Assembly (NCBI GenBank): GCA_902812415.1
Contig: CADDZJ010000022.1
Span: 1 to 44,115 of the forward strand
DNA from: Acidobacteriota bacterium
Lineage (GTDB): Bacteria; Acidobacteriota; Terriglobia; UBA7540
DNA length: 44,115 nt
Reading direction: 5' to 3'
The notes beneath the pieces are model-generated. The model worked only from the letters and a program-made list of their open reading frames with translations, had not been told where the DNA came from and made no database searches. The translations under genes and the position numbers were made by a program. Shown piece by piece: positions 30,855 to 44,090 of the stretch; position 1 is the stretch's first letter; every line of letters starts with the position of its first letter.

Positions 30855-33698
30855 TTACCGCGGGCAGCCGCGCACAACAGTCTTGTTTGCTTTCTGTTGC
30901 ATCTCGCGGCGAATTATCATTGGATCATCCAGCGGGGCAGATGGCGGCGCGGCAACCGGCTTAAGCCCTTTTTCGATGACTTTTGCGGGATCGAAAACGC
31001 GGAGATCGGAAGGAATAGCTTCGTAAGGCGCAAAATCAGGAACATCGGTAAAGCGGTCGGAAAGATCAGTCGCGGCTGCGTCGTATTGATTCAGCCATGG
31101 CAGGCCGAAAATCAGGTCGAAGGTTTTCAGGATACTCATAAAATCTGCATGCACGTGGGAGACGGCGCGACGCGAATACGGGCTGATCACCAGCAGAATG
31201 CTGCGATGCGCGTCCACGTGGTCCGTGCCCGACTGTGCGTCGTCTTCGGTTACGAAAATGGCCATGTGTTTCCAATACCGGCTATGAGAAAAAATTTCGA
31301 TCAGCTTTCCGAGCGCCAGATCGTTATCAGCCACGTAGGAAGCCCGGAAGGGATAACCTTCTGAGGGTCGCGGCTTGGCGGTATGATCCTGCGGCAGCCA
31401 CATGGAAATAAACTGCGGCAGCGGCTCACGGCCGCTGGCGTAACGACTCTGCCACTCGCTCATGAACTGTTGAAAGCGATATTGGTCCGAGATATTGGTA
31501 TTGAAGTTCGGGTAGATGCGCGAAGTGTTTTCAAACAACGGCTCAGGCATGGGAATGTTCACCGATTCGCGGACGCCAGTAGGTTCCATGTCGGAATCTT
31601 CGTCGTAGCCTGCCAACTCGAGACCTTCCCCGTAATTGCGGAAGCTTATATGATGCCGGGCCAGATGTTCCCAGAGCGAGCCGGCTTCGAGGTAATCCTC
31701 GGGCCAGGGGCTCGTTGAGCCGATTTCAAGCCGTCCGGGCGCCTTTGAGTCCGCCTTCCAGTCGAATTCCCCTCCGTAGGCAGCTGGCCAGCTCGTCTCA
31801 AAGAGGACATTCGGATAATTACCCACCAGCCAGTGATGGCCATCCACGGAGACGTCCGAATCGACATAAAAATTATCACTGATGCCGAAGCGTTCAGCCA
31901 GCGCGTGCGCATTTGGCGTCACCCGGACATCGCGGAAAGCCAGACCCAGAGACTTGTTTCCGACGCACGCCTCGTCGCCGTATTCGGCAAGATTCGGATC
32001 GCCATTCACCGCCTCTTCGTTCACTTCTTTCAGATCTCCAAACACCTGGTCGAAGGTGCGGTTTTCCCTGATGATAAAAATGACGTGACGAATCTTTTCG
32101 CTGGCTATGTCGGGCGGAGGAATGGGGAAATCCGGCGAGCGGCGGTCGGGGTGAGCCGGAGTCAGGAACCCGTTGTTTGCCAGCACCTGCTCTGTTTCAG
32201 CGCTGAGCGGGGAAGTCAATTGGGACCCTGTGATTGCTCGCTGGTTTGCGGTTTCGGCAGAGGGATGAAGAAGGTTGATGATGGAAACTGTTCCTTTGGT
32301 GATGTCCCCGATATAGGTACCCTCGGGACCTTCGTGGAAATCCGGCCCGCCGTTCGGACCAGCGCCGAAGCCCTTGGCGTTCGCTACATAGAGAGTTTTA
32401 CCATTAGGACTGAGCGCCACGCGCGCCGGAAACCAGCCTGTAGGAATGTAGCCCACTACCTCGTCATTTCGCGTATCGACCACAGCCACAGCATTGATTC
32501 CAGCACAAGCGGCGTAAAGCGTGCGACCACCGGGGCTGAGCGCCAGACCAAATGGCAGCACGCCCCGCAGTCCTTTCACCGCCGGAGCGGGTTCGAGCAG
32601 GATCGTTTTCTGGATTTGACCGCTGAGCGCATCGATGACGGTAATGCTATCCTGACTGGCATTGCTGACATAAACTCGCTGCTGTTTGGCTACAATGCCG
32701 CATGGGCTGCTGCCCCCTACGGACCCGGGCCCAACTGGAATGCCGGTTCGCACCTTGAACTTAACCGCGGGCTGCGCTGGATTCGAGACATCAATCGCCC
32801 AGATGGAATTTGAAAGCAATGTGTTGGGGCTGCCCAGGCCGGGAATCGTTCTTCCCTCAACGATGGCGCCTTGCTCGGCCTGCGGCGACGGGAAACCAAA
32901 GGGGGGAAAAGTCAGCCCCGTCGCGCGAGGATGTTTCGGATTATATCCAGGCACGAGTGAATAGCGGAACATTCCCGCATTGGAAACGTAAAGGGTATGC
33001 CCACCGGGCGCGAGTGCGATCCCAAAAGGCAAATAACCCACCGGCTGGCTGGCGATGATTTTTCTCGACTGTGTGCTGAAGATCACTAACCGAAAATGAG
33101 CGATGTCCAGAGCGTAGAGATGAAGGCCGTCGGGGGAAAGCTTCAGATCTCCAGTCAGGCTGTCGTGAAATTCCGAGCCACCGAAGCTTCCGTTCAGATT
33201 CAACTCGCCTATGCGGTGGCGCCGCCGAAGGTCAAAAATCCCAATCTCGCCATTGTCGCCCTCTGACACATAGGCGGTCCGATTATCGGGAGCAATCGCT
33301 GCGCCAAGATAGACGCTCTTGGGATCAGCATTGGAAGGCTTGAAACCAGGAGGAATCTGCACGACCCGGGGATGCGAGCTTCCAAGGCGATTGATGATGG
33401 AGATGGAGAACGGCGCGGTGCCGCTGTTTACCGTGATTAACGTTTTGCCGTTGGGACTGAGCGCGAGGCCATAGGGATGCGGTGCCACCGTCACCTGAAC
33501 GCCACGCGGCGTGATCAGCCGGCCGTTGGGGAGAATCGTCGCTGCGTACCGATTAATGTGGGTGGCCCGCGTTCCGGCAGGCGCTTCGAGCGCGGCTCTC
33601 CCGCCCACCTGAAGCGCATTGCCTTTTGGCGACGCTGGCGAGAAGAGGCGCATGAAAAGTACGGTGAGAAGCAGCAACCACAGCCAGCGAATCGTCAT
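30855..33698 (-). CDS. Beta-propeller and phosphoesterase fusion protein
   Basis: A secreted protein of 947 residues. After a hydrophobic signal (WLWLLLLTVLFMRLF) come about ten YVTN-type repeats (PHPYGLALSPNGKTLITVNSG; LPFGLALSPGGRTLYAACAG; WFPARVALSPNGKTLYVANAKG), a beta-propeller over residues 50-480. The C-terminal half (about 540-930) is a phosphoesterase of the alkaline-phosphatase superfamily (phospholipase C/AcpA type): ENRTFDQVFGD with the nucleophile-bearing loop, SVDGHHWLVGNY, and the metal site in TEDDAQSGTDHVDAHRS. Substrate is unknown; a phosphodiester or phospholipid head group is plausible. The start is an ATG behind AGGAGA. It closes the minus-strand block that begins with the AraC gene, 108 bp after the alcohol dehydrogenase. 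Confidence 0.92.
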   Translation of the reverse strand: MTIRWLWLLLLTVLFMRLFSPASPKGNALQVGGRAALEAPAGTRATHINRYAATILPNGRLITPRGVQVTVAPHPYGLALSPNGKTLITVNSGTAPFSISIINRLGSSHPRVVQIPPGFKPSNADPKSVYLGAAIAPDNRTAYVSEGDNGEIGIFDLRRRHRIGELNLNGSFGGSEFHDSLTGDLKLSPDGLHLYALDIAHFRLVIFSTQSRKIIASQPVGYLPFGIALAPGGHTLYVSNAGMFRYSLVPGYNPKHPRATGLTFPPFGFPSPQAEQGAIVEGRTIPGLGSPNTLLSNSIWAIDVSNPAQPAVKFKVRTGIPVGPGSVGGSSPCGIVAKQQRVYVSNASQDSITVIDALSGQIQKTILLEPAPAVKGLRGVLPFGLALSPGGRTLYAACAGINAVAVVDTRNDEVVGYIPTGWFPARVALSPNGKTLYVANAKGFGAGPNGGPDFHEGPEGTYIGDITKGTVSIINLLHPSAETANQRAITGSQLTSPLSAETEQVLANNGFLTPAHPDRRSPDFPIPPPDIASEKIRHVIFIIRENRTFDQVFGDLKEVNEEAVNGDPNLAEYGDEACVGNKSLGLAFRDVRVTPNAHALAERFGISDNFYVDSDVSVDGHHWLVGNYPNVLFETSWPAAYGGEFDWKADSKAPGRLEIGSTSPWPEDYLEAGSLWEHLARHHISFRNYGEGLELAGYDEDSDMEPTGVRESVNIPMPEPLFENTSRIYPNFNTNISDQYRFQQFMSEWQSRYASGREPLPQFISMWLPQDHTAKPRPSEGYPFRASYVADNDLALGKLIEIFSHSRYWKHMAIFVTEDDAQSGTDHVDAHRSILLVISPYSRRAVSHVHADFMSILKTFDLIFGLPWLNQYDAAATDLSDRFTDVPDFAPYEAIPSDLRVFDPAKVIEKGLKPVAAPPSAPLDDPMIIRREMQQKANKTVVRGCPR

Positions 33699-33806: not shown

Positions 33807-34967
33807 TTACAGCGCCTGCTCATAGAGCGCCGCCATATCCGATTCAGTACAAGGCCTCGGGTTGAGCAGATGGCAGGCATCCTCCATCGCCTTCTTCGAC
33901 ATGGCGGGGATCATGTCGCGCGTGATTCCAAGCGCGCTGAGCCGATCGGGTACGCCCACTTCCCGAAGGAGCTGCCGGATCCGCCCAATCACCGCCGTGG
34001 CAGCTTTCGCGGCAGGCGCGCCCGTTCCGTCCAAACCCATGGCCTGCGCGATATCCCGCATCCGCTCTTCACACACGGGACGATTAAATTCGAGGACGTG
34101 CGGCAGGAGTATGCCGTTCGTCGTCCCGTGATGCAGGCCGCCAATGGAAGAAAGGGGATGGGCGAGCGAGTGAGTCACGCCTAAACCCTTCTGGAAGGCC
34201 ACAGCGCCCATCAGGGAGGCCATCATCATATTTGTCCGGGCGGCAAGGTTGCCGCCTTCATGAACCGCGATGGGAAGATTCTTCATAGCCAGACGTATGC
34301 CATAGAGGGCGATGGCATCACACAGCGGTTGGTAACCCTTTGCCAGATACGCCTCCACGTTGTGGGTGAGGGCGTCGAGACCCGTTCCGGCGGTGATTCC
34401 GGGCGGCAGGCCGAGCGTGAGTTCCGGGTCGTCCAGGGCGACGCTGGGAATCAGGTGAGGGCTGAAAATCACAGTCTTGCGGTCGGTGGCCTTGAGCAGG
34501 ATTACGGCGCTTCGCCCCACTTCGCTGCCGGTGCCGGAAGTCGTGGCGATTGCAACCATCGGCGGAAGATTGGCCGTAATCCGGTTGCTGCCGTTGGCCT
34601 GGTCGTCGTATTGCGCGAGCGGGAGCGGATGCGTCACCCCCAGGCGGATAACTTTGGCGGCGTCGAGCGGGCTGCCGCCCCCCAGCGCGACGATGCCATC
34701 GCAGCGCTCGCTGCGGTAACGTTCAATGCCCGCAAGGACATTCGCCTCAGTGGGATTGTTGTTCACGTTGTCGAACAGGATGAACGCTGTATTCGGGGCC
34801 GCAGCGGCGACACATGCGGCAAGCCCCGCCGCGACCACACCTGGGTCAGTGACCAGCAGCGGCCGGCGTACGCCCAGGCGTTTGATTTCATCGCCCAAAC
34901 GGCCAAGAGCCCCTGCGCCGAAAATGACGCGGGTGGGAAATGCAAAAATCGAAATGGAGTCATTCAT
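33807..34967 (-). CDS. Iron-containing alcohol dehydrogenase
   Basis: A cytoplasmic group III alcohol dehydrogenase of 386 residues, interconverting an alcohol and an aldehyde with NAD(P). It has the family signatures GGGSPLDAAKV (about 97-106), TTSGTGSEV (142-150), and the iron ligands D198, H202, H266 and H280 with the same spacing as in E. coli FucO (D196, H200, H263, H277). The start is an ATG at 34967. It lies 69 bp after the glutamine-synthetase-like gene and shares its direction, so in this cluster it probably oxidises an alcohol group of the pathway intermediate. Confidence 0.95.
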   Translation of the reverse strand: MNDSISIFAFPTRVIFGAGALGRLGDEIKRLGVRRPLLVTDPGVVAAGLAACVAAAAPNTAFILFDNVNNNPTEANVLAGIERYRSERCDGIVALGGGSPLDAAKVIRLGVTHPLPLAQYDDQANGSNRITANLPPMVAIATTSGTGSEVGRSAVILLKATDRKTVIFSPHLIPSVALDDPELTLGLPPGITAGTGLDALTHNVEAYLAKGYQPLCDAIALYGIRLAMKNLPIAVHEGGNLAARTNMMMASLMGAVAFQKGLGVTHSLAHPLSSIGGLHHGTTNGILLPHVLEFNRPVCEERMRDIAQAMGLDGTGAPAAKAATAVIGRIRQLLREVGVPDRLSALGITRDMIPAMSKKAMEDACHLLNPRPCTESDMAALYEQAL

Positions 34968-35036
34968 GATGTGTGACCGGTCTCCTGTTTCACGCGTCTG
35001 GCGCGCAACCGAATTGGATTGCTCCTGAAAAGCGCG

Positions 35037-36401
35037 TCAGATGCTCTCGAAGTAACGCTCGAGTTCCCAGTCTGTCACGGCGCGCTCGAACTGTTGCACC
35101 TCCCAGTTGCGGGTCATCGTATAAAAATCGACAAATTCTCCGCCGAACCAATCCCGCGCCGCGCGACTGCCGGCAAAGAGTTTGCTGGCTTCTTGTAGGC
35201 TGCGGGGCAGGGGAGCCGCGTCAGCGGCGCAGTAGGCGTTAGCGACCGGTGGGGGCAGCTTCAGGCGCTGCTGGATACCGTGAAGTCCCGAAGCCAGGCT
35301 TGCAGCCAGCGCCAAATAAGGATTTGCGTCCGCTCCAGGCAGCCGGTGCTCGATGCGCGTGGTTTTCGGACCGGTCAGAATGGCGCGAAGCGCAGTCGTG
35401 CGATTGTCAACGCCCCAGGTCACATTGACCGGCGCCCAGCTTTGCGTCCCGGGCGCTGTGCGCTTATAAGAATTGACGGTGGGTAAAAACATCACAGCAA
35501 ATTCCGGCATCAGCGCGAGTTGACCCGATAAGTACTGGCGCATGAGAGGCGACATTCCTTCCGGGGCGTGATTTGCGCCGCCATAGAAAAGATTCGTTCT
35601 GCCCTGGCGGTTGAGGAGGCTCTGGTGGATGTGGCCGCTCGATCCGGGAAGCCGGGGATTCCATTTGGCCATAAATGTCGCCATCAGGCCGCGCTTTTGC
35701 GCCAGCACCTTGACGGTTGTTTTGAACAGCGCCGCCTTATCCGCCGCGCGTAGGGCCTCGTCAACGCGGATCGCAGTTTCGTAGACGCCTGGCCCGGTCT
35801 CGGTGTGATGCCCTTCAATCTCAATGCCGAGGGTGCGCATCGAGTCCAGGATGGCATGAGCCAGATCCGAATGGACCGAGGCGCGCAAGACGCTATATCC
35901 GAACATGCCGGGCGTCATGGGCGTCAGGTCCCAGAAGCGTTTGGCGCGCGCGGAGTGGGAATCCTCGCGGAAGAACCAGTATTCATACTCGATCGCCGCG
36001 CGAGGCGTATACCCCATCCCGTTTGCGCGCTCGATGACGCGCTCGAGGACGTGACGGGGCGAGACGGCGAGCGGCTTGCCGTCCGGCCGGTGGAAATCCA
36101 GCAGAAAAAGCGCGGTATTCGGCTCCCAGGGGAGCACACAGAATGTCGAAAGATCAATGCGCGCGATGGCGTCTGGGTAGCCCGTGCGCCAGCCGGTAAC
36201 CGCGGGCTGATCGTACAAGGTGTCCGAACTGTCCCAGCCAAAGATCACATCGCAGAACCCCAGGCCGCTTTCGACGGCGGAGAAGAATTTGTCTTGCGAG
36301 ACATACTTGCCCCGTAAAATGCCATCCACATCGAAGCCGCCAATTTTTATCTTGTCGATCCGGTGTTTTTGAAATGCCTGCTTGATCTGGTTAAGGGTCA
36401 T
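35037..36401 (-). CDS. Glutamine-synthetase-family ligase (PuuA/GlnA4-like)
   Basis: A 454-residue ATP-dependent ligase of the glutamine synthetase family, typical of gamma-glutamylpolyamine or gamma-glutamyl-amine synthetases rather than housekeeping GlnA. The N-terminus has DVDGILRGKYVSQDKF. The catalytic domain shows IEYEYWFF, ETGPGVYE, SSGHIHQSLL, NSYKR and IEHRLPGADANPYLALAA, so metal, ATP and glutamate sites look intact. The Tyr adenylylation loop of GlnA is absent. It would join glutamate to an amine as the first catabolic step. Neighbours (aldehyde and alcohol dehydrogenases, APC permease) support catabolism. The acceptor amine cannot be read from the sequence. Confidence 0.92.
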   Translation of the reverse strand: MTLNQIKQAFQKHRIDKIKIGGFDVDGILRGKYVSQDKFFSAVESGLGFCDVIFGWDSSDTLYDQPAVTGWRTGYPDAIARIDLSTFCVLPWEPNTALFLLDFHRPDGKPLAVSPRHVLERVIERANGMGYTPRAAIEYEYWFFREDSHSARAKRFWDLTPMTPGMFGYSVLRASVHSDLAHAILDSMRTLGIEIEGHHTETGPGVYETAIRVDEALRAADKAALFKTTVKVLAQKRGLMATFMAKWNPRLPGSSGHIHQSLLNRQGRTNLFYGGANHAPEGMSPLMRQYLSGQLALMPEFAVMFLPTVNSYKRTAPGTQSWAPVNVTWGVDNRTTALRAILTGPKTTRIEHRLPGADANPYLALAASLASGLHGIQQRLKLPPPVANAYCAADAAPLPRSLQEASKLFAGSRAARDWFGGEFVDFYTMTRNWEVQQFERAVTDWELERYFESI

Positions 36402-36524
36402 AGGTTCTGGCGATCAGTTTTCAGCAATCAGCGAAACAGGGGCGAGTAAAAAGCAAACTATCGCGCGCACAGGATCAGCCTGAGGCAAAGCTGTTTGCTG
36501 ATGGCTGACCGCTGTTTGCTGCAA
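36402..36524. other. Intergenic region between the ligase and aldehyde dehydrogenase
   Basis: A 122-bp gap with GCTGTTTGCTG repeated directly (about 36489 and 36510) and an interspersed GATGGCTGACC. It may carry a weak internal promoter or an attenuation site, but I can show nothing decisive. Confidence 0.3.
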
Positions 36525-38003
36525 CTAATCGAGCGCCACCCAGACGGATTTAATCTGGGTGTAGGACTCGATGGCATGCCTCCCCATTTCACGCCCAAAG
36601 CCGCTTTGCTTGTAACCGCCGAACGGCGAGGCGCTATCAAAGCAATTATAGGCGTTGATCCAGACCGAACCGGCCTTGATCTCCTGCGCCAACCGGTGAG
36701 CTGTCTGAATATCGCGCGTCCACACGGCTGAGACCAACCCGTAGATGGTGCTGTTGGCAATTGCGGCCGCCTCCTCGACGTCCGAGAATTTCAGCGCTGC
36801 CAGCACGGGGCCGAAAATTTCTTCCTGGGCGATCTTCATCTGTGGCTTTACATCGGCGAAGATCGCGGGTTTGATGTAGTAACCGCGCGCCTTCTCGCCC
36901 TCCGTATCGCGCTCGCCGCCGCACAGGAGACTAGCCCCTTCACGCTTCCCCGCCTCAATATAGGTCATAATGCGCTCGAATTGCGTCTTGCTGATTTGCG
37001 CGCCCATTTCGCTGGCCGGATCAAGCGGATTGCCTATTCTCATTTTCCTCGCGCGTTCCGCGAGGCCGTTGACAAAGCGATCGTATATTTTTTCATGCAC
37101 CAGGAGGCGCGACCCGGCGCTGCACACTTCGCCCTTGTTCGCGTAGATTCCCCAAAAGGAGGCGTTTTGAGCGCGGTCGAGGTCGGCGTCAGGGAAGATG
37201 ATGTTGGGCGATTTGCCGCCCAGCTCAAGCGACAGGCGTTTCAGGTTGCTCTCGGCTGAAGCCTTCAGCAACGAGCGGGCTGTGCGGATGCTGCCGGTGA
37301 AGGCGATTTTGTCAACATCGTTGTGGCGAGCCAGCGCATCGCCGGCGGAAGGTCCGTAGCCGGTCACCACATTGACGACGCCTTCCGGCACGCCTGCTTC
37401 CACGCAATATTCGGCAAGTTTCAGCGTGGTGAGCGGGGTCATTTCGGAAGGCTTGATGACCATGGAGCAGCCCGTTGCAAGGGCTGGAGCCACCTTCCAC
37501 GCGGCGAGCAGCAGCGGATAATTCCATGCCGTAATCATGCCCACCACGCCCACCGGCTCGCGCAGGGTGTAGTTCAGATAGCTGCCGTCCACCGGGATCG
37601 TCTCGCCGCAAATCTTGCGCACCCAGCCGGCATAGTAATAAAAGATGTCCCAGGAAGGCGGGATATCGCCGCGCAGGGCCTCGCGGTACGTCTTGCCGTT
37701 GTTAAGCGACTCGAGCAGACCCAACTCTTCTTTGTTTTTCTCGATCAGTTCGCCGATGCGCCAGAGGATTTTCTCGCGTTCAGAAACTCTCATCTTGCGC
37801 CAGGCGCCGTTTTCAAATGAGCGGCGGGCGGCGCGAACGGCGCGATCCACATCCTCCGGGCCGGCGTCGGGAACGGTGGTGAGTTGCTCGCCTGTGGCGG
37901 GATTCATCACCGAAATTGTCTTGCCGGAGACGGCGTCTTCATACTTCCCATCGATGAAGAGCTTTTGGGGTTTTAGAGCTTTAGTAACAGTTGCGGCTTC
38001 CAT
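36525..38003 (-). CDS. NAD(P)-dependent aldehyde dehydrogenase
   Basis: A class-I-type aldehyde dehydrogenase of 492 residues, oxidising an aldehyde to the acid. The catalytic residues are present: N161 in AWNYP, E260 in LELGGKSP, C294 in NKGEVCSAGSRL; the NAD site FTGS is at 235-238. Closest in type to betaine-aldehyde/PuuC-like enzymes (ELGGKSPNIIF, FGGYKQSGFGRE). The start is an ATG at 38003 behind AAGGATTATCT. It sits between the permease and the glutamine-synthetase-like gene on the same strand, so gamma-glutamyl aldehydes are plausible substrates; this is inference from context. Confidence 0.96.
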   Translation of the reverse strand: MEAATVTKALKPQKLFIDGKYEDAVSGKTISVMNPATGEQLTTVPDAGPEDVDRAVRAARRSFENGAWRKMRVSEREKILWRIGELIEKNKEELGLLESLNNGKTYREALRGDIPPSWDIFYYYAGWVRKICGETIPVDGSYLNYTLREPVGVVGMITAWNYPLLLAAWKVAPALATGCSMVIKPSEMTPLTTLKLAEYCVEAGVPEGVVNVVTGYGPSAGDALARHNDVDKIAFTGSIRTARSLLKASAESNLKRLSLELGGKSPNIIFPDADLDRAQNASFWGIYANKGEVCSAGSRLLVHEKIYDRFVNGLAERARKMRIGNPLDPASEMGAQISKTQFERIMTYIEAGKREGASLLCGGERDTEGEKARGYYIKPAIFADVKPQMKIAQEEIFGPVLAALKFSDVEEAAAIANSTIYGLVSAVWTRDIQTAHRLAQEIKAGSVWINAYNCFDSASPFGGYKQSGFGREMGRHAIESYTQIKSVWVALD

Positions 38004-38061
38004 AGATAATCCTTATTCACGTCGGTCGCGCGAGCCTGCTTACTTATTGAGCCATTGTTTC

Positions 38062-38088
38062 ATTGAGTCATTGATTCAATGACTCAAT
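38062..38088. promoter_or_regulatory. Perfect 27-bp palindrome before the aldehyde dehydrogenase
   Basis: Arms ATTGAGTCATTGA and TCAATGACTCAAT surround a single central T. It lies in the 96-bp gap between the permease and aldehyde dehydrogenase genes, about 60 bp ahead of the latter's start. A 13-bp perfect inverted repeat with a one-base centre could be an operator for a dimeric regulator, or an RNA stem. Related CATTGTTTCATTGAG words precede it. Confidence 0.5.
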
Positions 38089-38099
38089 CCTTTCACTCA

Positions 38100-39626
38100 T
38101 CACTGTTCTTCTGCGTCTTTCGCAAGGTTCCAGGCGGGTTTCTGCATTTTGTGCTTGCCGGTGGAAAGGTGAAGCAGGAGCAACGCTCCCATCACCACGG
38201 CAATGCCCCAGCCAGCGCGCGTGTTGGGAGGCATCACCATGATCGTGCAGATTCCCAGCGTCCAGATGAGCGCCAGCAGGTTGATGGCGTTGCTGGAAGC
38301 GCCCAGATGCCACGGGCCGCGTTTGGAGATCCAGAGATTCTTTCTTTGCCAACCGAGATAAACCGGAATGATATAGGACAAATAAAATCCTACCACGCTG
38401 ATGGAGGTCACCACCGAATAGGCCCCGCTATAGACCATTGCCACAAAGGCCAGAGCTGCCGAGAGCCAGATGGCGGGAGCGGGCGTTTTATGGCGAGCGC
38501 TGATGCGGCTCCAGAGAGTGGAAAGCGGCATTCCGTGGTCGCGCGCGAAGGCGTAAAACGTCCGTGAGACCGAGGTGCAGGCGGCAAGCCCGCAGAACCA
38601 CATGGCGAGCACCGTCAAACCCAGCACCGCCGTTACGGCGCGGCCGCCCAGGGTCATTTCCACAATCGCCAGCACCGCGGGAACGGGATTGCCTCCGGCA
38701 TCCTTGGCGCCAAGCACGCGGGGGATGCTCGGAATTGCCCAAGTCAGCGAAAGAATCAGGATATAGCCAAAAAAGCCGGAAACCACGACAGACATCACCA
38801 TGCCCCAGGGCGCGCGACGGCGCGGATCGATGGTCTCCTCCGCCACGTGCGCCGAGGCGTCAAAGCCGGTGTAGGTCCACTGGGCTTGCAGAAGGCCGAG
38901 CATGAAAAGCCATGCGTAGGATGCATGGATGTGGCTGGATGAGGCGGCCTGGAGAAGAAAATGAAGAGGCCGCTTGGGAGCGAACATCCAAATTGCGCTA
39001 ATGAGCACTGCGACGCCCAGAATGTGCACGGTGACGCTGAAATCGTTGAGCCACGCCACCCATTGCGTTGAGTAATGGTTGATCACGGCTTGGGAGAGCA
39101 GCAGCAGCCCATAAACCATCAGGAGCGTCGAGGTTTTGGATTCCAGTCCCAGCATCGGGACCAGAAATTGCGCGCAGCCATAATCGATGCCCGCGATGGC
39201 GGCCACCAGCCCGACAATGTTCAGCCATGCCGTGAACCAAGCCCACATGGGGCCGCCCAGTTCCGCTGACCAGTGGTACATGCCGCCGGATGTGGGAAGC
39301 GCCGAGCACAGTTCCGCCATGCTGAGCGCCACGAGCACCGTTCCGGCTGTCGCCAACGGCCAACCCAGGGTCATTTCGAGCGGCCCGCCCATGGTGAGGC
39401 CGTAATCGAAGAGCGTGACTGCGCCCGTCAAAATGGAAATGATGGAAAACGAAATGGCGAAATTGGAAAAGCCGCCGAAACCCCGGATTAACTCCTGGGC
39501 GTAGCCGAGGCGGGCGAGATCGCGGGCGTCTTCCTGAGCGCGGCCATCCTCTATTTGCTGCGCGGAGCGCAAATGAGTTGTCGTCTTCGAACGGACCAGG
39601 CCGATTGTCTCCATTTGCCAATTCAT
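38100..39626 (-). CDS. APC superfamily amino acid/amine permease
   Basis: A 508-residue secondary transporter with about twelve membrane helices, of the amino-acid/polyamine/choline type. The amino terminus (residues 1-45) is charged and cytoplasmic; the first helix opens with the typical GFGGFSNFAISFSIISILTG. The SGGMYHWSAELGG segment is typical of GABA/choline-type permeases (UgaP/HnmA-like), and TGFDASAHVAEET matches the conserved helix 6 region. Cargo is probably an amine or amino acid, which fits the adjacent gamma-glutamyl ligase. The start is an ATG at 39626 with no evident ribosome site, within a hairpin arm (39620-39649); METIG at the fifth codon is an alternative start. Confidence 0.93.
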   Translation of the reverse strand: MNWQMETIGLVRSKTTTHLRSAQQIEDGRAQEDARDLARLGYAQELIRGFGGFSNFAISFSIISILTGAVTLFDYGLTMGGPLEMTLGWPLATAGTVLVALSMAELCSALPTSGGMYHWSAELGGPMWAWFTAWLNIVGLVAAIAGIDYGCAQFLVPMLGLESKTSTLLMVYGLLLLSQAVINHYSTQWVAWLNDFSVTVHILGVAVLISAIWMFAPKRPLHFLLQAASSSHIHASYAWLFMLGLLQAQWTYTGFDASAHVAEETIDPRRRAPWGMVMSVVVSGFFGYILILSLTWAIPSIPRVLGAKDAGGNPVPAVLAIVEMTLGGRAVTAVLGLTVLAMWFCGLAACTSVSRTFYAFARDHGMPLSTLWSRISARHKTPAPAIWLSAALAFVAMVYSGAYSVVTSISVVGFYLSYIIPVYLGWQRKNLWISKRGPWHLGASSNAINLLALIWTLGICTIMVMPPNTRAGWGIAVVMGALLLLHLSTGKHKMQKPAWNLAKDAEEQ

Positions 39627-39649
39627 AATTCTATTCAGAATTATGAATT
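39620..39649. promoter_or_regulatory. AT-rich perfect hairpin over the permease start codon
   Basis: Arms AATTCATAATTCT (39620-39632) and AGAATTATGAATT (39637-39649) with a 4-nt loop ATTC form a perfect 13-bp stem. It spans the permease ATG (39624-39626) and lies 3 bp beyond the receptor's stop (39653). No T run follows on either side, so it is not a classical terminator. It may sequester the permease start or act as an RNA processing end. Confidence 0.55.
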
Positions 39650-39652
39650 TAC

Positions 39653-42600
39653 TCAGAAATCGATGCGAGCGCCAATTTGGCCCTCACGAGCGCCGGCAAA
39701 CTCATAGAGCCCCTGAGCCGCTGTCACGCAGCCAAAGCCGCACTGTCCCTGAGCGGGGTTATTGACGTCCGTGATTTTCATATCCGGAATCCCCAGGTTG
39801 ACATGGTTGAGAACATCGACAAATGAGACCTCGAAACTCAGCTTAGCCCGCTCGGTGAGCCTGAAACTCTTGCTCAAGCCGAAGTCCCAATCGATAGTGC
39901 CTGGACCTTCGAGTGTCCCAATGCCCGCATTGCCGAAACGCCCGATCGGTGGATTGGCGGCATTGGTGCCCGCCTTGCAATTTCCACCGGGGCAGATATA
40001 CCCCGAGCTTAAAAACCACTGGTCTGCGCTCTGGCTGCCGGGATAAGCAGACCCTATGTGGTCAGGAGACTGGGCGCGCCCGCCGTAGACCCCAATGCCG
40101 GTCCCTGATGGATCGCCGCCCGAAAAGTAAGGAGTGAGCCACGGCCCCGACTGAAGCTTGATGATATTGCTCGCCTGCCATCCGCCAATGACGGCGTTGA
40201 GCGCCCGGTTCGAGGTCCTAGCAAAACGTTGGCCGCTTCCGAAGGGAAGCTGATAGATGAGCGTGTTGAGCCAGAGATGGCGCGGGTTAAATGTGTTTCC
40301 ATACTCCAGATGGCGGTCGTAAAAATCTCCCGACCTGTTGCAAGCCGTTTCCCCACAAAAGCCGCCATTGCTCGATGGCCCCTGGTTATCGGCCAAATTC
40401 CTGGAATACGTGTATGTGCTTTCAAAAGAAATGCCGTGCCCTAATCGGTGATGAGCTTCAACCTGTAACGCGTTGTAGTAGGCCGTGGCTCCAATATCCC
40501 TGGCTTCAACGCGACCCCAGTTTGGATAAGGTCGGCTGCTAAGGGGCTGCAAAGAGAACGGGACGGTCGAAGGGAGTGACTGATTCCAATTGGGCGCCCA
40601 GACCAAGTTCGTGGTTTTCATGCCGATGTAAGAGATGCGCAGCCCTGTCGCCAGGCCAAGATTGTGCTCCACTGACATGGACCATTGGAGGGAGTAAGGC
40701 TCCTTCCAATTTACCTGGTTCGCCGTGCCAAAATACGCGGTGCCGTACTGAGGGGCTCCGAAACCGGAACCGCCTGTCGATGTGACGGGCCACGCGAACG
40801 CCGGGCCGCTCGACCCCAGGGTGTTCAGGAACGTGCGCGTATACGCCTGCAGCGTTCCCGTGAGGGAATAAAAAACGCTTCCCAGGGTTGCCGCCTCGTA
40901 AGAGCCAATGCTGCCGCGCACGACGGTGTTGTCATTATTAAACGGCTTGTAGGCAAAACCGAAGCGCGGCAGGAAGCGTTTTGACGTGGTGCGAAGCCCT
41001 TGGGGAAAACCTGCCTGGGATGCCGTGAGCACCGGCGTGCATGGGGCGCTGTTCAAATTCAGAGGATCATTAGCAGTCAGCGGCACCGCAGCCAACGGGC
41101 AGGCATCGAATGTCTGAAGAAATGGAGGCGCGAGGTTCTGGGCGAATCCGTCCGGATAAATCGCCTGACCGGAGCGCGGCACGTGATCATTGAAATTGCC
41201 GATATTGCCATGCGCATCGGTATAACCGGGGTGGTACTCCCAGCGCACGCCGTATTCTAGCGTCAGGCGCTGATTGACGTGGAAATTATCCTGGGCGTAG
41301 AGGGCCCAGTGACGGCTTCGGCCATCATTGTCATTCGTGACGTTGTCCAGGTCGGACTCTTCGGGCAGGCCCAAAAGAAAATCCGCGAAGTCGTTGCCCG
41401 TGAATAGCCCGGTAAAACGAAACGTTCCGTAGTTATCAGCGCCAAAAAAGCCGAGAGCGGTTACGGCGCGAATGCCAAGCGTGTCGGCTCCAAATTTGAA
41501 CGTATGGCCGCCGCGAATCCAGGTCAGGTTATCGAGGAACTCGATGGTACGCGACTGGCTTAGCGAATTAAGGCGGTCCACATTCATGTTGGTGGTTTGG
41601 CCGCTGAAATCGATTTCTGGAGCGCCGTTGAACCAGAGGTTAGAGATTCCCTGCAAGCCGAGCGTATTGGTGAACGCTGCGCCTTTGAAAGGATTTGAAG
41701 TTCCGTTGGGATCGTTGGTGAATCCAAAGCGAAACTCGTTCAGCAAAGTGGGTTTCATCGTGTCCGTCGCCGAGACCACGAGCATCCTGTAGTGACTGAA
41801 GTTCGTGCTGGAGGGGAAAAGCAGTTCCTGGGGCGAGAGCTGATCGACGTTTTTAAACGTGTATCTTCCGAAGACAGAAAGTTTGGAGCCGAAGTACTGA
41901 TCACCACGGACGTCAAACGTATTGGAGTTGAGGTTCGCAGGCCGGTTGACGTTGTAGTTGTCATTCGTGTATGTGCTTTTGATGTTGGGCAGGGGGTAGA
42001 GGGAGAGCACCTTCTGGGCAATCGGGCTGATCGCGCTGCTCGGAATCTGGTTATTGGCATAGGGCTGTCCATTTAAGTTGTAAATTTGTTCGCTTTGGTC
42101 ATTGCAGACGCCGTTTGTGAAACCTGCTGTGCAGAAAACTGAGAGATCGCCGTTGCGCATGTCCTGGGTGGGAACGGTGTTCTGGACAACGCCGGTTCGC
42201 GGAAAACGAAAACCTTCGAAGTCCCCGTAGAAAAACGTCTTGTTGCGCCCATTGTAAAGATGCGGGATCACCACCGGGCCGCCCAGACTTCCACCGAAAT
42301 CATTGGCTACTTTCTTTGGCTTCGAGGACGCTCCAAAGGGAATCGCATCAAACGCGGCGTTCTGATCGTATTCAAAAATACTGCCGTGAAGCTGGTTGGT
42401 GCCGCTCTTGGAGGTCGTCGTGATGTCCGCGGGGTCGCCGTATTCGGCCGGCGCCCCGACGCCTTGCACTCGCATCTCGTCGATGGCCTCCGCGGAGGGG
42501 AAGGCGTCACGCAGCGGGCTGTTGCCGGTGACATCGGTGGTGGAGATTCCATCCAGCGTAAACTGGGACTGGCTTTGGAGAGCGCCCTGAATAGCGAGAT

Positions 42601-43141
42601 TGCCGCGAGCGTCCGTTTGTACTCCAGGGAGGACGGTAAGCAGGTAGTAGGGGCTGTTGCCGTTGGCGGAGGCGCGATAATTTGTCGGCAGGTCGGTGAT
42701 TTGCAAATGGCCGAAGCTTGAGGAAACCGTTGAAGTGTCTGTGCTGATGACCCCCAGTGTGCTGCCCTTCACGGTCACCGATTGGGTAACCGCTCCCAGG
42801 CTCAGAGCGACATCGGCCCGCAGAGTCTGCCGGGCCGTAAGGACCAGGCTCGTCACCTCGGCGGTCCGGAACCCCGGTTTGCTGACCTTGACCGTGTAGT
42901 GTCCGGGCTTGGCGTCAGCGAGTTCATAGTTGCCCTTCACATCTGTGGTGACGCTTCGTGAGCTGCCTTCGTCGGTATTCGTAACCACGACCGTGGCATC
43001 GGGGATCACTGCGCCCGAGGTGTCCTTAACGGTGCCCAGCAGCGTTCCAAAAGTCGACTGCGCCCATAGCGGAAATCGTGACCCGACAAGAATTAATCCA
43101 AGGGCCAGTCCGAAAGCGAGCATCGATTGTCTTTTTGACAT
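39653..43141 (-). CDS. TonB-dependent receptor, Oar-like with carboxypeptidase-regulatory domain
   Basis: An outer-membrane receptor of 1162 residues. A signal peptide (about 1-28, ending PLWAQ) is followed by a carboxypeptidase-regulatory-like domain (GTLLGTVKDTSGAVIPDATVVV, about 30-115), a plug domain (130-240), and a large beta-barrel ending ARIDF, with the terminal Phe expected for BAM-assembled barrels. This domain order is the large Acidobacteria/Bacteroidetes-like Oar group. The ATG at 43141 behind CGGAGGAGAG gives the signal peptide; the longer reading (TTG/ATG at 43171) is rejected. Substrate is unknown. It is transcribed towards the catabolic genes, 26 bp ahead of the permease, so it could import the cluster's substrate across the outer membrane. 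Confidence 0.95.
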   Translation of the reverse strand: MSKRQSMLAFGLALGLILVGSRFPLWAQSTFGTLLGTVKDTSGAVIPDATVVVTNTDEGSSRSVTTDVKGNYELADAKPGHYTVKVSKPGFRTAEVTSLVLTARQTLRADVALSLGAVTQSVTVKGSTLGVISTDTSTVSSSFGHLQITDLPTNYRASANGNSPYYLLTVLPGVQTDARGNLAIQGALQSQSQFTLDGISTTDVTGNSPLRDAFPSAEAIDEMRVQGVGAPAEYGDPADITTTSKSGTNQLHGSIFEYDQNAAFDAIPFGASSKPKKVANDFGGSLGGPVVIPHLYNGRNKTFFYGDFEGFRFPRTGVVQNTVPTQDMRNGDLSVFCTAGFTNGVCNDQSEQIYNLNGQPYANNQIPSSAISPIAQKVLSLYPLPNIKSTYTNDNYNVNRPANLNSNTFDVRGDQYFGSKLSVFGRYTFKNVDQLSPQELLFPSSTNFSHYRMLVVSATDTMKPTLLNEFRFGFTNDPNGTSNPFKGAAFTNTLGLQGISNLWFNGAPEIDFSGQTTNMNVDRLNSLSQSRTIEFLDNLTWIRGGHTFKFGADTLGIRAVTALGFFGADNYGTFRFTGLFTGNDFADFLLGLPEESDLDNVTNDNDGRSRHWALYAQDNFHVNQRLTLEYGVRWEYHPGYTDAHGNIGNFNDHVPRSGQAIYPDGFAQNLAPPFLQTFDACPLAAVPLTANDPLNLNSAPCTPVLTASQAGFPQGLRTTSKRFLPRFGFAYKPFNNDNTVVRGSIGSYEAATLGSVFYSLTGTLQAYTRTFLNTLGSSGPAFAWPVTSTGGSGFGAPQYGTAYFGTANQVNWKEPYSLQWSMSVEHNLGLATGLRISYIGMKTTNLVWAPNWNQSLPSTVPFSLQPLSSRPYPNWGRVEARDIGATAYYNALQVEAHHRLGHGISFESTYTYSRNLADNQGPSSNGGFCGETACNRSGDFYDRHLEYGNTFNPRHLWLNTLIYQLPFGSGQRFARTSNRALNAVIGGWQASNIIKLQSGPWLTPYFSGGDPSGTGIGVYGGRAQSPDHIGSAYPGSQSADQWFLSSGYICPGGNCKAGTNAANPPIGRFGNAGIGTLEGPGTIDWDFGLSKSFRLTERAKLSFEVSFVDVLNHVNLGIPDMKITDVNNPAQGQCGFGCVTAAQGLYEFAGAREGQIGARIDF

Positions 43142-43193
43142 GATTTCTCTCCTCCGATCAAGCTCGATCATGACGGCAACAGATTGCGCTGCT

Positions 43194-43222
43194 ATTGTCT
43201 TCGTATGACGCTTTTATTACAA
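43194..43222 (-). promoter_or_regulatory. Possible promoter of the TonB-dependent receptor
   Basis: On the minus strand TTGTAA (43217-43222) is followed after 17 bp by GACAAT (43194-43199). Each matches the sigma-70 consensus at four of six positions with ideal spacing. It lies 52 bp ahead of the receptor ATG. The match is moderate. Confidence 0.35.
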
Positions 43223-43268
43223 ATCCACCCTGAGGTGTCTTGTGGCAGACTAGCGCTTTTGGCGGAAA

Positions 43269-44090
43269 TTAACGCGAAGTTTTCAGCTGCCGGTATTGGG
43301 AAGGGGTCATGCCGGTGAGGGTCTGGAAGGTCTTGGAAAACTGGCTCTGGTCAGAGAAGCCTACGGCCAGGGCGATTTCCGCCAACGGATCGTCATTTTG
43401 AGACAGCAGGCGGCAGGCAAACTCGACTCGCAATTGTCGGAGCCGCTGCCCGACCGTACAACCCATACACCGGTGAAATTCACGAGCCAGGTGTACGGGA
43501 TGAACGCCCACCGTTTCGGCAATTCTGCCCAGCGTGAGCCGTTCGGCAAACCGGTCGTGAATCAGGTCGTTTGCCTGCCGCAACCATTGCGGCGGACGGA
43601 AGCGGGGGCCTTTCAGATTCTGTCGGAGAATTTCCGCCATCAACTCAATCGTAAGCCCTTCGATGGCAACCCAGGAAAGCTCGTCCATCAGGCGAAACTC
43701 TCCGTAAAGCCTTGCGGCAACCCAGCCCGCTTTGCCGCCGTTCAGGTCCATCGGACAATCTGCGAAAAGGGAGCGCTCGCGCAGGCCTTCGAGCCTTGAG
43801 GGTGCGATCTCAATATTGAGCTCGTGGGCTCCCCCTTCGTGAAATTGGTCGGAATGAATCTCGCCCGCGGGATGATACATCACAGTCCAGGGCTTTGAAG
43901 ACCGGACTTTGTCCTCGCACAGTTGGGTGGAGTTGCCGTCTAAAGTGATCCCAATGTAGGCGTCTTCATGGGAGTGCCGGGGGTTCCGCAGGTTAGGGCC
44001 GTACGTAATCTCTGTCAGACGCAGTCCGGCAAGCTCCATGGTCTTGACGACCTTTCCATGAAAAGAGCAATTGTGTAGCCGGAAGCCCAT
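43269..44090 (-). CDS. AraC family transcriptional regulator
   Basis: A 273-residue regulator. The N-terminal part (about 20-110) has a cupin-like ligand-sensing fold, with PRHSHEDAYIGITLDG typical of cupin motif 1 and YHPAGEIHSDQFHEGG of motif 2. The C-terminal part (about 170-270) is the two helix-turn-helix AraC domain: LGRIAETVGVHPVHLAREFHR and IALAVGFSDQSQFSKTFQTLTGMTPSQYR. The ATG at 44090 follows GGGAG by about 10 bp. It lies immediately upstream of the receptor and in the same direction, so it is the likely regulator of the receptor-to-phosphoesterase block. Confidence 0.93.
   Translation of the reverse strand: MGFRLHNCSFHGKVVKTMELAGLRLTEITYGPNLRNPRHSHEDAYIGITLDGNSTQLCEDKVRSSKPWTVMYHPAGEIHSDQFHEGGAHELNIEIAPSRLEGLRERSLFADCPMDLNGGKAGWVAARLYGEFRLMDELSWVAIEGLTIELMAEILRQNLKGPRFRPPQWLRQANDLIHDRFAERLTLGRIAETVGVHPVHLAREFHRCMGCTVGQRLRQLRVEFACRLLSQNDDPLAEIALAVGFSDQSQFSKTFQTLTGMTPSQYRQLKTSR

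Follow-up and report, generated by a model that had tools for sequence, protein, structure and literature searches.

The 44,115-nucleotide contig CADDZJ010000022.1, analysed here in its entirety and referred to as the window (contig C22, one of 261 in the 4.84 Mb source genome), carries a six-gene cluster that probably encodes the catabolism of ethanolamine, a constituent of cell membranes, via gamma-glutamylation. The cluster comprises genes for an AraC-family regulator, an Oar-like outer-membrane receptor, a permease of the amino acid-polyamine-organocation (APC) superfamily, an aldehyde dehydrogenase (ALDH), a glutamine-synthetase-like ligase and an iron-type alcohol dehydrogenase (Fe-ADH). 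The source organism is a soil acidobacterium, and the nearest named relatives of its genome are acidobacterial genome bins (Terriglobia, gp13). A preliminary description of the window had named these six genes and proposed that their products take up an amino alcohol, gamma-glutamylate it and oxidize it; the coordinates, order, strand and domains of the genes were all borne out, and the core of the proposal is supported by a ligase that is not GlnA, by conservation of the genes together and by the absence of PuuB in relatives.

In the proposed route, the APC permease would carry ethanolamine across the inner membrane and the ligase would join it to L-glutamate at the expense of adenosine triphosphate (ATP), yielding gamma-glutamylethanolamide. 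The Fe-ADH would oxidize this product to gamma-glutamylacetaldehyde, which the ALDH would convert to gamma-glutamylglycine. A hydrolase encoded elsewhere, for which a lone PuuD-like C26 gene (G000:C100) is the best candidate, would release glycine and recycle glutamate. The genes, their families, the retained catalytic residues, the loss of the glutamine-forming residue and the conserved co-occurrence are read from the sequences themselves; what we infer is the substrate, the order of reactions, the identity of the hydrolase and whatever part AraC, the receptor and a neighbouring phosphoesterase may play.

The ligase keeps the metal, glutamate and ATP residues (E138, E140, E201, E208, H257, H259, R314, R334, R339, E351 and R353), and E327 of glutamine synthetase, which is needed for glutamine formation, is replaced by W322. 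The residue at this position is tryptophan in PauA7 and phenylalanine in GlnA4 (PMC6529630), and tryptophan is common to IpuC and the window ligase. In the phylogeny that the preliminary description had suggested, the ligase is found outside the GlnA clade and outside the PuuA branch, in a clade, termed clade A, with enzymes of Bacteroidota and Proteobacteria (Shimodaira-Hasegawa-like approximate likelihood ratio test, SH-aLRT, 99; bootstrap 100 in another tree). Group B of the ligase tree includes the ligases of ethanolamine operons linked to tripartite ATP-independent periplasmic (TRAP) transporters, the GlnA4-like ligases of loci L110 and L111, which were picked on gene content to represent GlnA4 (SCO1613) in the comparisons, and the Protein Data Bank (PDB) entries 5dm3 and 11zs. 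Entry 5dm3, which we take to be the C. salexigens ligase from an ethanolamine operon, shares 70% identity with the TRAP-linked enzyme at locus L109. IpuC forms a third group and PuuA a long separate branch, and the union of clades A and B as a single clade is borderline by the approximately unbiased test (p-AU 0.050). The sequence separates the ligase from both GlnA and PuuA and places it in a strongly supported clade of its own.

A ligase scan of named genomes returned 80 loci with 47-77% identity, and clustering of the neighbouring open reading frames (ORFs) identified ALDH and Fe-ADH as the two commonest neighbours. The preliminary description had named a lack of joint conservation in related genomes as grounds for rejecting its proposal; among the acidobacterial loci, 12 of 21 have a same-strand Fe-ADH and ALDH within six genes of the ligase, as do 12 of 31 loci in Bacteroidota and 33 of 43 in other groups, counted after removal of single-genome duplicates and including many incomplete contigs. 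The trio of ligase, Fe-ADH and ALDH is a conserved module that recurs across many phyla, and clade A hosts include Acidobacteriota, Bacteroidota, Myxococcota and Pseudomonadota, the last with Legionella. The gene set in Bacteroidota is apparently complete, with permease, ligase, Fe-ADH, C26 hydrolase (PuuD-like) and ALDH, and that in Gammaproteobacteria consists of ligase, ALDH, Fe-ADH and a class I glutamine amidotransferase. Another genome (L004/G404) preserves the full order from AraC through receptor, APC permease, ALDH and ligase to Fe-ADH at 61-83% identity, and the arrangement is more than coincidence. Nevertheless, the distribution of the cluster is patchy, since a close ligase occurs in 20 of 299 genomes of the window's class (14 of these in its family, the source genome included) whereas the three further genomes of its genus lack one.

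Other arrangements were also observed within clade A. Nine loci of a Bacteroidota ligase subclade (L011, L013, L015, L022, L024, L025, L028, L048 and L049) are without ADH or ALDH; here the ligase is followed by a protein of ~360 residues without Pfam match, which looks kinase-like by eye, and then by a HAD phosphatase (APH/HAD clusters), and a different role is suggested for this subclade. On alphaproteobacterial plasmids (L103:7134-17338 and L112:6516-17147), clade-A ligases lie by genes for dimethylformamidase, a polyamine ATP-binding cassette transporter and an aminotransferase, without Fe-ADH. A Rhizobium plasmid (L102:3558-10738) carries a PuuD-like gene, a glucose-methanol-choline (GMC) oxidoreductase, a clade-A ligase and an ALDH, and the flavin alcohol oxidoreductase seems to occupy the place of Fe-ADH.

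The Fe-ADH provides a link to a published system. The TRAP ethanolamine operon encodes EtoVWX, an ethanolamine glutamylase, two dehydrogenases and an amidohydrolase; an operon of this layout is induced by phosphorylethanolamine, and the Phaeobacter binding protein of such an operon binds ethanolamine with a dissociation constant of 7.9 µM (PMC10132767). Loci L108 and L109 match the published layout and both use Fe-ADH. In a tree with other Fe-ADHs sampled from ten genomes, the ligase-linked Fe-ADHs form one clade (support 99), with EutG, FucO, YiaY and the other sampled Fe-ADHs outside, and the Fe-ADHs of L108 and L109 nest inside it, so the window enzyme is of the type present in the TRAP-linked layout. 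A tree holding the window-type Fe-ADHs apart from those of the ethanolamine operons is rejected with a p-AU of 0.003, an optimistic value as the grouping was picked after the first tree. The window ALDH has both catalytic motifs, LELGGKSPNI and GEVCSAGSR. Acidobacterial ALDHs, together with that of L008 (Myxococcota), are of the PuuC/BADH/AldB kind, and TRAP-operon ALDHs nest among the proteobacterial clade-A ALDHs. An ALDH of another subfamily seems to have taken over the aldehyde step, which fits a requirement for the step itself better than the handing down of an unchanging operon.

Permeases of the relatives point to the same compound. In Bacteroidota, the permease directly upstream of the clade-A ligase exceeds the cut-off of the TIGR00908 "ethanolamine permease" model (430, 449 and 400 against 381.75 bits); the Zooshikella permease scores 497 bits, four others are slightly under the cut-off, and an EAT-type permease lies within six genes of the ligase in 18 of 31 Bacteroidota loci. 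A group-B cluster from the same class as the window (L114) has a TIGR00908 permease of 577 bits. Members of the window permease's family adjoin the clade-A ligase at 10 of the 21 acidobacterial loci, and two other Acidobacteriota (L117 and L119, 59% identity) have them next to group-B (ETAGA/GlnA4-type) ligases, so that the two ligase groups have a permease family in common. Ethanolamine is the likeliest substrate on this genomic context, being favoured by the TIGR00908 permeases of relatives, the shared Fe-ADH family and the permease family common to both ligase groups. EutB of the classical EutBC ammonia-lyase was not found in the genome.

The preliminary description had remarked that a gamma-glutamyl hydrolase is missing, and none is present in the window cluster. 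A check of the genome found one clear, distant C26 (PuuD-like) protein (C100:3403-4017, 178 bits), which is ~40% identical to cluster-borne C26 proteins. A co-evolved partnership of this gene with the ligase was rejected, as it occurs with or without the ligase, and it stays a candidate; the N-formylglutamate amidohydrolase family was also considered, and no such gene exists in the genome. In the clusters of relatives, the hydrolase is C26 (PuuD-like) in Bacteroidota and class I amidotransferase-like in many gammaproteobacterial ones.

Several observations weigh against the ethanolamine assignment. The window ligase is only ~33-36% identical to the TRAP-operon ethanolamine ligases and nearer to IpuC (40-42%); with the borderline union of clades A and B, the ligase tree alone leaves the substrate unfixed. 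The window permease is not of the TIGR00908 type (50 bits), so that the permease argument is borrowed from relatives, and the window ALDH is of a different subfamily than that of the TRAP operon (~30% identity). The hydrolase is absent from the cluster in all 21 acidobacterial loci, and orthologues of the C26 gene occur across nearly all family genomes, whether the ligase is present or not. Lastly, the other contexts of some clade-A ligases indicate that the clade is not uniform in function.

The proximity to IpuC, annotated as gamma-glutamylisopropylamide synthetase (isopropylamine/alaninol) and the closest named ligase, together with the tryptophan shared at the E327 position, raises the alternative that these reactions serve a different short amino alcohol (L-alaninol, 1-amino-2-propanol or 3-aminopropanol, for instance) and that ethanolamine is at most a side substrate; an Fe-ADH and an ALDH would suit any primary amino alcohol. 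This is unlikely in our estimate: IpuC loci have a P450 system and no Fe-ADH, permeases found with clade A score as ethanolamine permeases, and the Fe-ADH of the published ethanolamine operon falls in the same family as the window enzyme. A Puu-like polyamine or gamma-aminobutyric acid route, in which putrescine or a similar compound is gamma-glutamylated and the ALDH acts as PuuC, would draw on the 45% identity of the window ALDH to E. coli PuuC and on a weak match of the ligase to the NCBIfam gamma-glutamylputrescine synthetase NF045547 (198 bits, cut-off 650). However, a PuuB-type oxidase is found in 0 of 95 clade-A loci examined and not in the window cluster, an alcohol dehydrogenase stands in its place, the ligase branches apart from PuuA, with which it shares only 31% identity, and the permease is 22% identical to PuuP, which makes this route quite improbable. 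Least credible of all is a reading of the ligase as glutamine synthetase, or as a nitrogen-control paralogue of GlnA, with neighbours that belong to an unrelated alcohol/aldehyde pathway. Its membership in the Gln-synt_C family would allow this, but it has lost the E327-type residue and scores far under GlnA cut-offs, two ordinary GlnA-type genes reside at other sites in the genome, and the linkage to Fe-ADH and ALDH is conserved across phyla.

The features of the cluster are summarized in Table 1. The six ORFs are intact and on the minus strand, with intergenic gaps of 26 to 123 bases; the contig terminates just upstream of AraC, and genes further upstream are not visible. Two perfect inverted repeats with 13-base arms are located at 38062-38088 (loop 1, in the gap before the ALDH gene) and 39620-39649 (loop 4, at the permease start), and they may act as binding sites for a regulator or form hairpins in the mRNA. 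Scans for promoters and terminators yielded matches no more frequent than chance.

Table 1. Features of the proposed ethanolamine gene cluster and its downstream neighbour, with proposed functions
Feature	Coordinates	Strand	Domains
AraC-family regulator	43269..44090	-	Helix-turn-helix PF12833 + AraC_binding
Oar-like outer-membrane beta-barrel receptor	39653..43171	-	CarboxypepD_reg + OMP_b-brl_4 (PF25183)
APC-superfamily permease, proposed ethanolamine permease	38100..39626	-	AA_permease_2; nearest TIGR00907, below cut-off
Aldehyde dehydrogenase, PuuC/BADH-like; proposed gamma-glutamylacetaldehyde dehydrogenase	36525..38003	-	Aldedh
Glutamine-synthetase-like gamma-glutamyl-amine ligase; proposed gamma-glutamylethanolamide synthetase	35037..36401	-	Gln-synt_C
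Iron-type alcohol dehydrogenase, ligase-linked Fe-ADH family; proposed gamma-glutamylethanolamide dehydrogenase	33807..34967	-	Fe-ADH domain
Possible accessory: secreted YncE-like beta-propeller + PF04185 phosphoesterase (phospholipase C/acid-phosphatase superfamily)	30855..33698	-	

The coupling to a TonB-type receptor, which had been regarded as unusual, loses its force as a special feature. The source genome carries ~65 Oar-like PF25183 receptor genes, so that one beside the operon is unsurprising, and both the receptor (61% identity) and AraC (68% identity) are syntenic only in the one close relative (L004/G404). The two are lineage-specific additions; the membership of AraC in the pathway is uncertain, and its control of the cluster, as proposed in the preliminary description, is not supported. 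The phosphoesterase gene, which the preliminary description had not named, lies directly downstream of the Fe-ADH gene on the same strand and is likewise syntenic in L004/G404; its phosphoesterase domain carries the motif ENRTFDQVFGD. This gene was rejected as a fixed part of the cluster, being located elsewhere in most relatives.

The ethanolamine reading can be extended without being replaced: in concert with the receptor and phosphoesterase, the cluster might scavenge phosphatidylethanolamine or glycerophosphoethanolamine, whose head group would be freed outside, imported and glutamylated. Besides the syntenic arrangement, this idea is favoured by the small number of PF04185 genes in the genome (~5) and by a distantly related genome, G341, in which a frame of 1994 residues (L180:7048-13032) combines a TonB-receptor-type barrel with a beta-propeller/phosphoesterase and adjoins a ligase/Fe-ADH/ALDH/APC cluster of another ligase sub-lineage. 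The barrel of the fused ORF is truncated (profile positions 1-634 of 838) and the phosphoesterase gene is away from the ligase in most relatives, and we regard the extension as doubtful. Similarly tentative is the broader proposal that the hitherto unassigned clade A represents another line of gamma-glutamylethanolamide synthetases, for the most part distinct from the GlnA4 and TRAP-linked enzymes, which in some Acidobacteriota is joined with a phosphoesterase and a receptor in a locus for phospholipid head-group scavenging.

In the open literature consulted, descriptions of ethanolamine gamma-glutamylation have so far come mainly from Streptomyces and some Proteobacteria. If the assignment is true, the pathway would also run in Bacteroidota, Acidobacteriota and Legionella-type bacteria via a ligase branch now annotated "glutamine synthetase", and many annotations would be corrected. 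Cultured carriers include Chitinophaga solisilvae, Parapedobacter koreensis and Olivibacter sitiensis.

The cluster is best read as a variant of the known ethanolamine gamma-glutamylation pathway that is set apart by a separate ligase clade, a different subfamily of ALDH and the use of an APC permease. It resembles the TRAP-linked ethanolamine operon of Chromohalobacter, Agrobacterium and Phaeobacter (PMC10132767) in combining ligase, Fe-ADH and ALDH, and the Fe-ADH of that operon nests in the window family. In contrast to the TRAP-linked operon, the window cluster has a ligase of another clade, an ALDH of another subfamily, an APC permease in place of the TRAP transporter, and AraC where the TRAP operon has RpiR, and it is without an amidohydrolase. 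The GlnA4 cluster of Streptomyces coelicolor (SCO1610-1615; PMC6529630) shares a ligase without E327, a dehydrogenase, an ALDH and a proposed gamma-glutamylethanolamide route; nevertheless, it uses a short-chain dehydrogenase instead of Fe-ADH and has a glutamine amidotransferase, and loci of like content (L110 and L111) carry clade-B ligases. IpuC, encoded on Paenarthrobacter aurescens TC1 plasmids, is the closest named ligase and has tryptophan at the E327 position, but it is linked to a P450 system and a short-chain dehydrogenase/reductase. The Puu pathway of E. coli (PuuA, PuuB, PuuC and PuuD) shares the logic of gamma-glutamylation and a related ALDH, whereas in the window cluster an alcohol dehydrogenase replaces the PuuB oxidase and PuuD has no counterpart.

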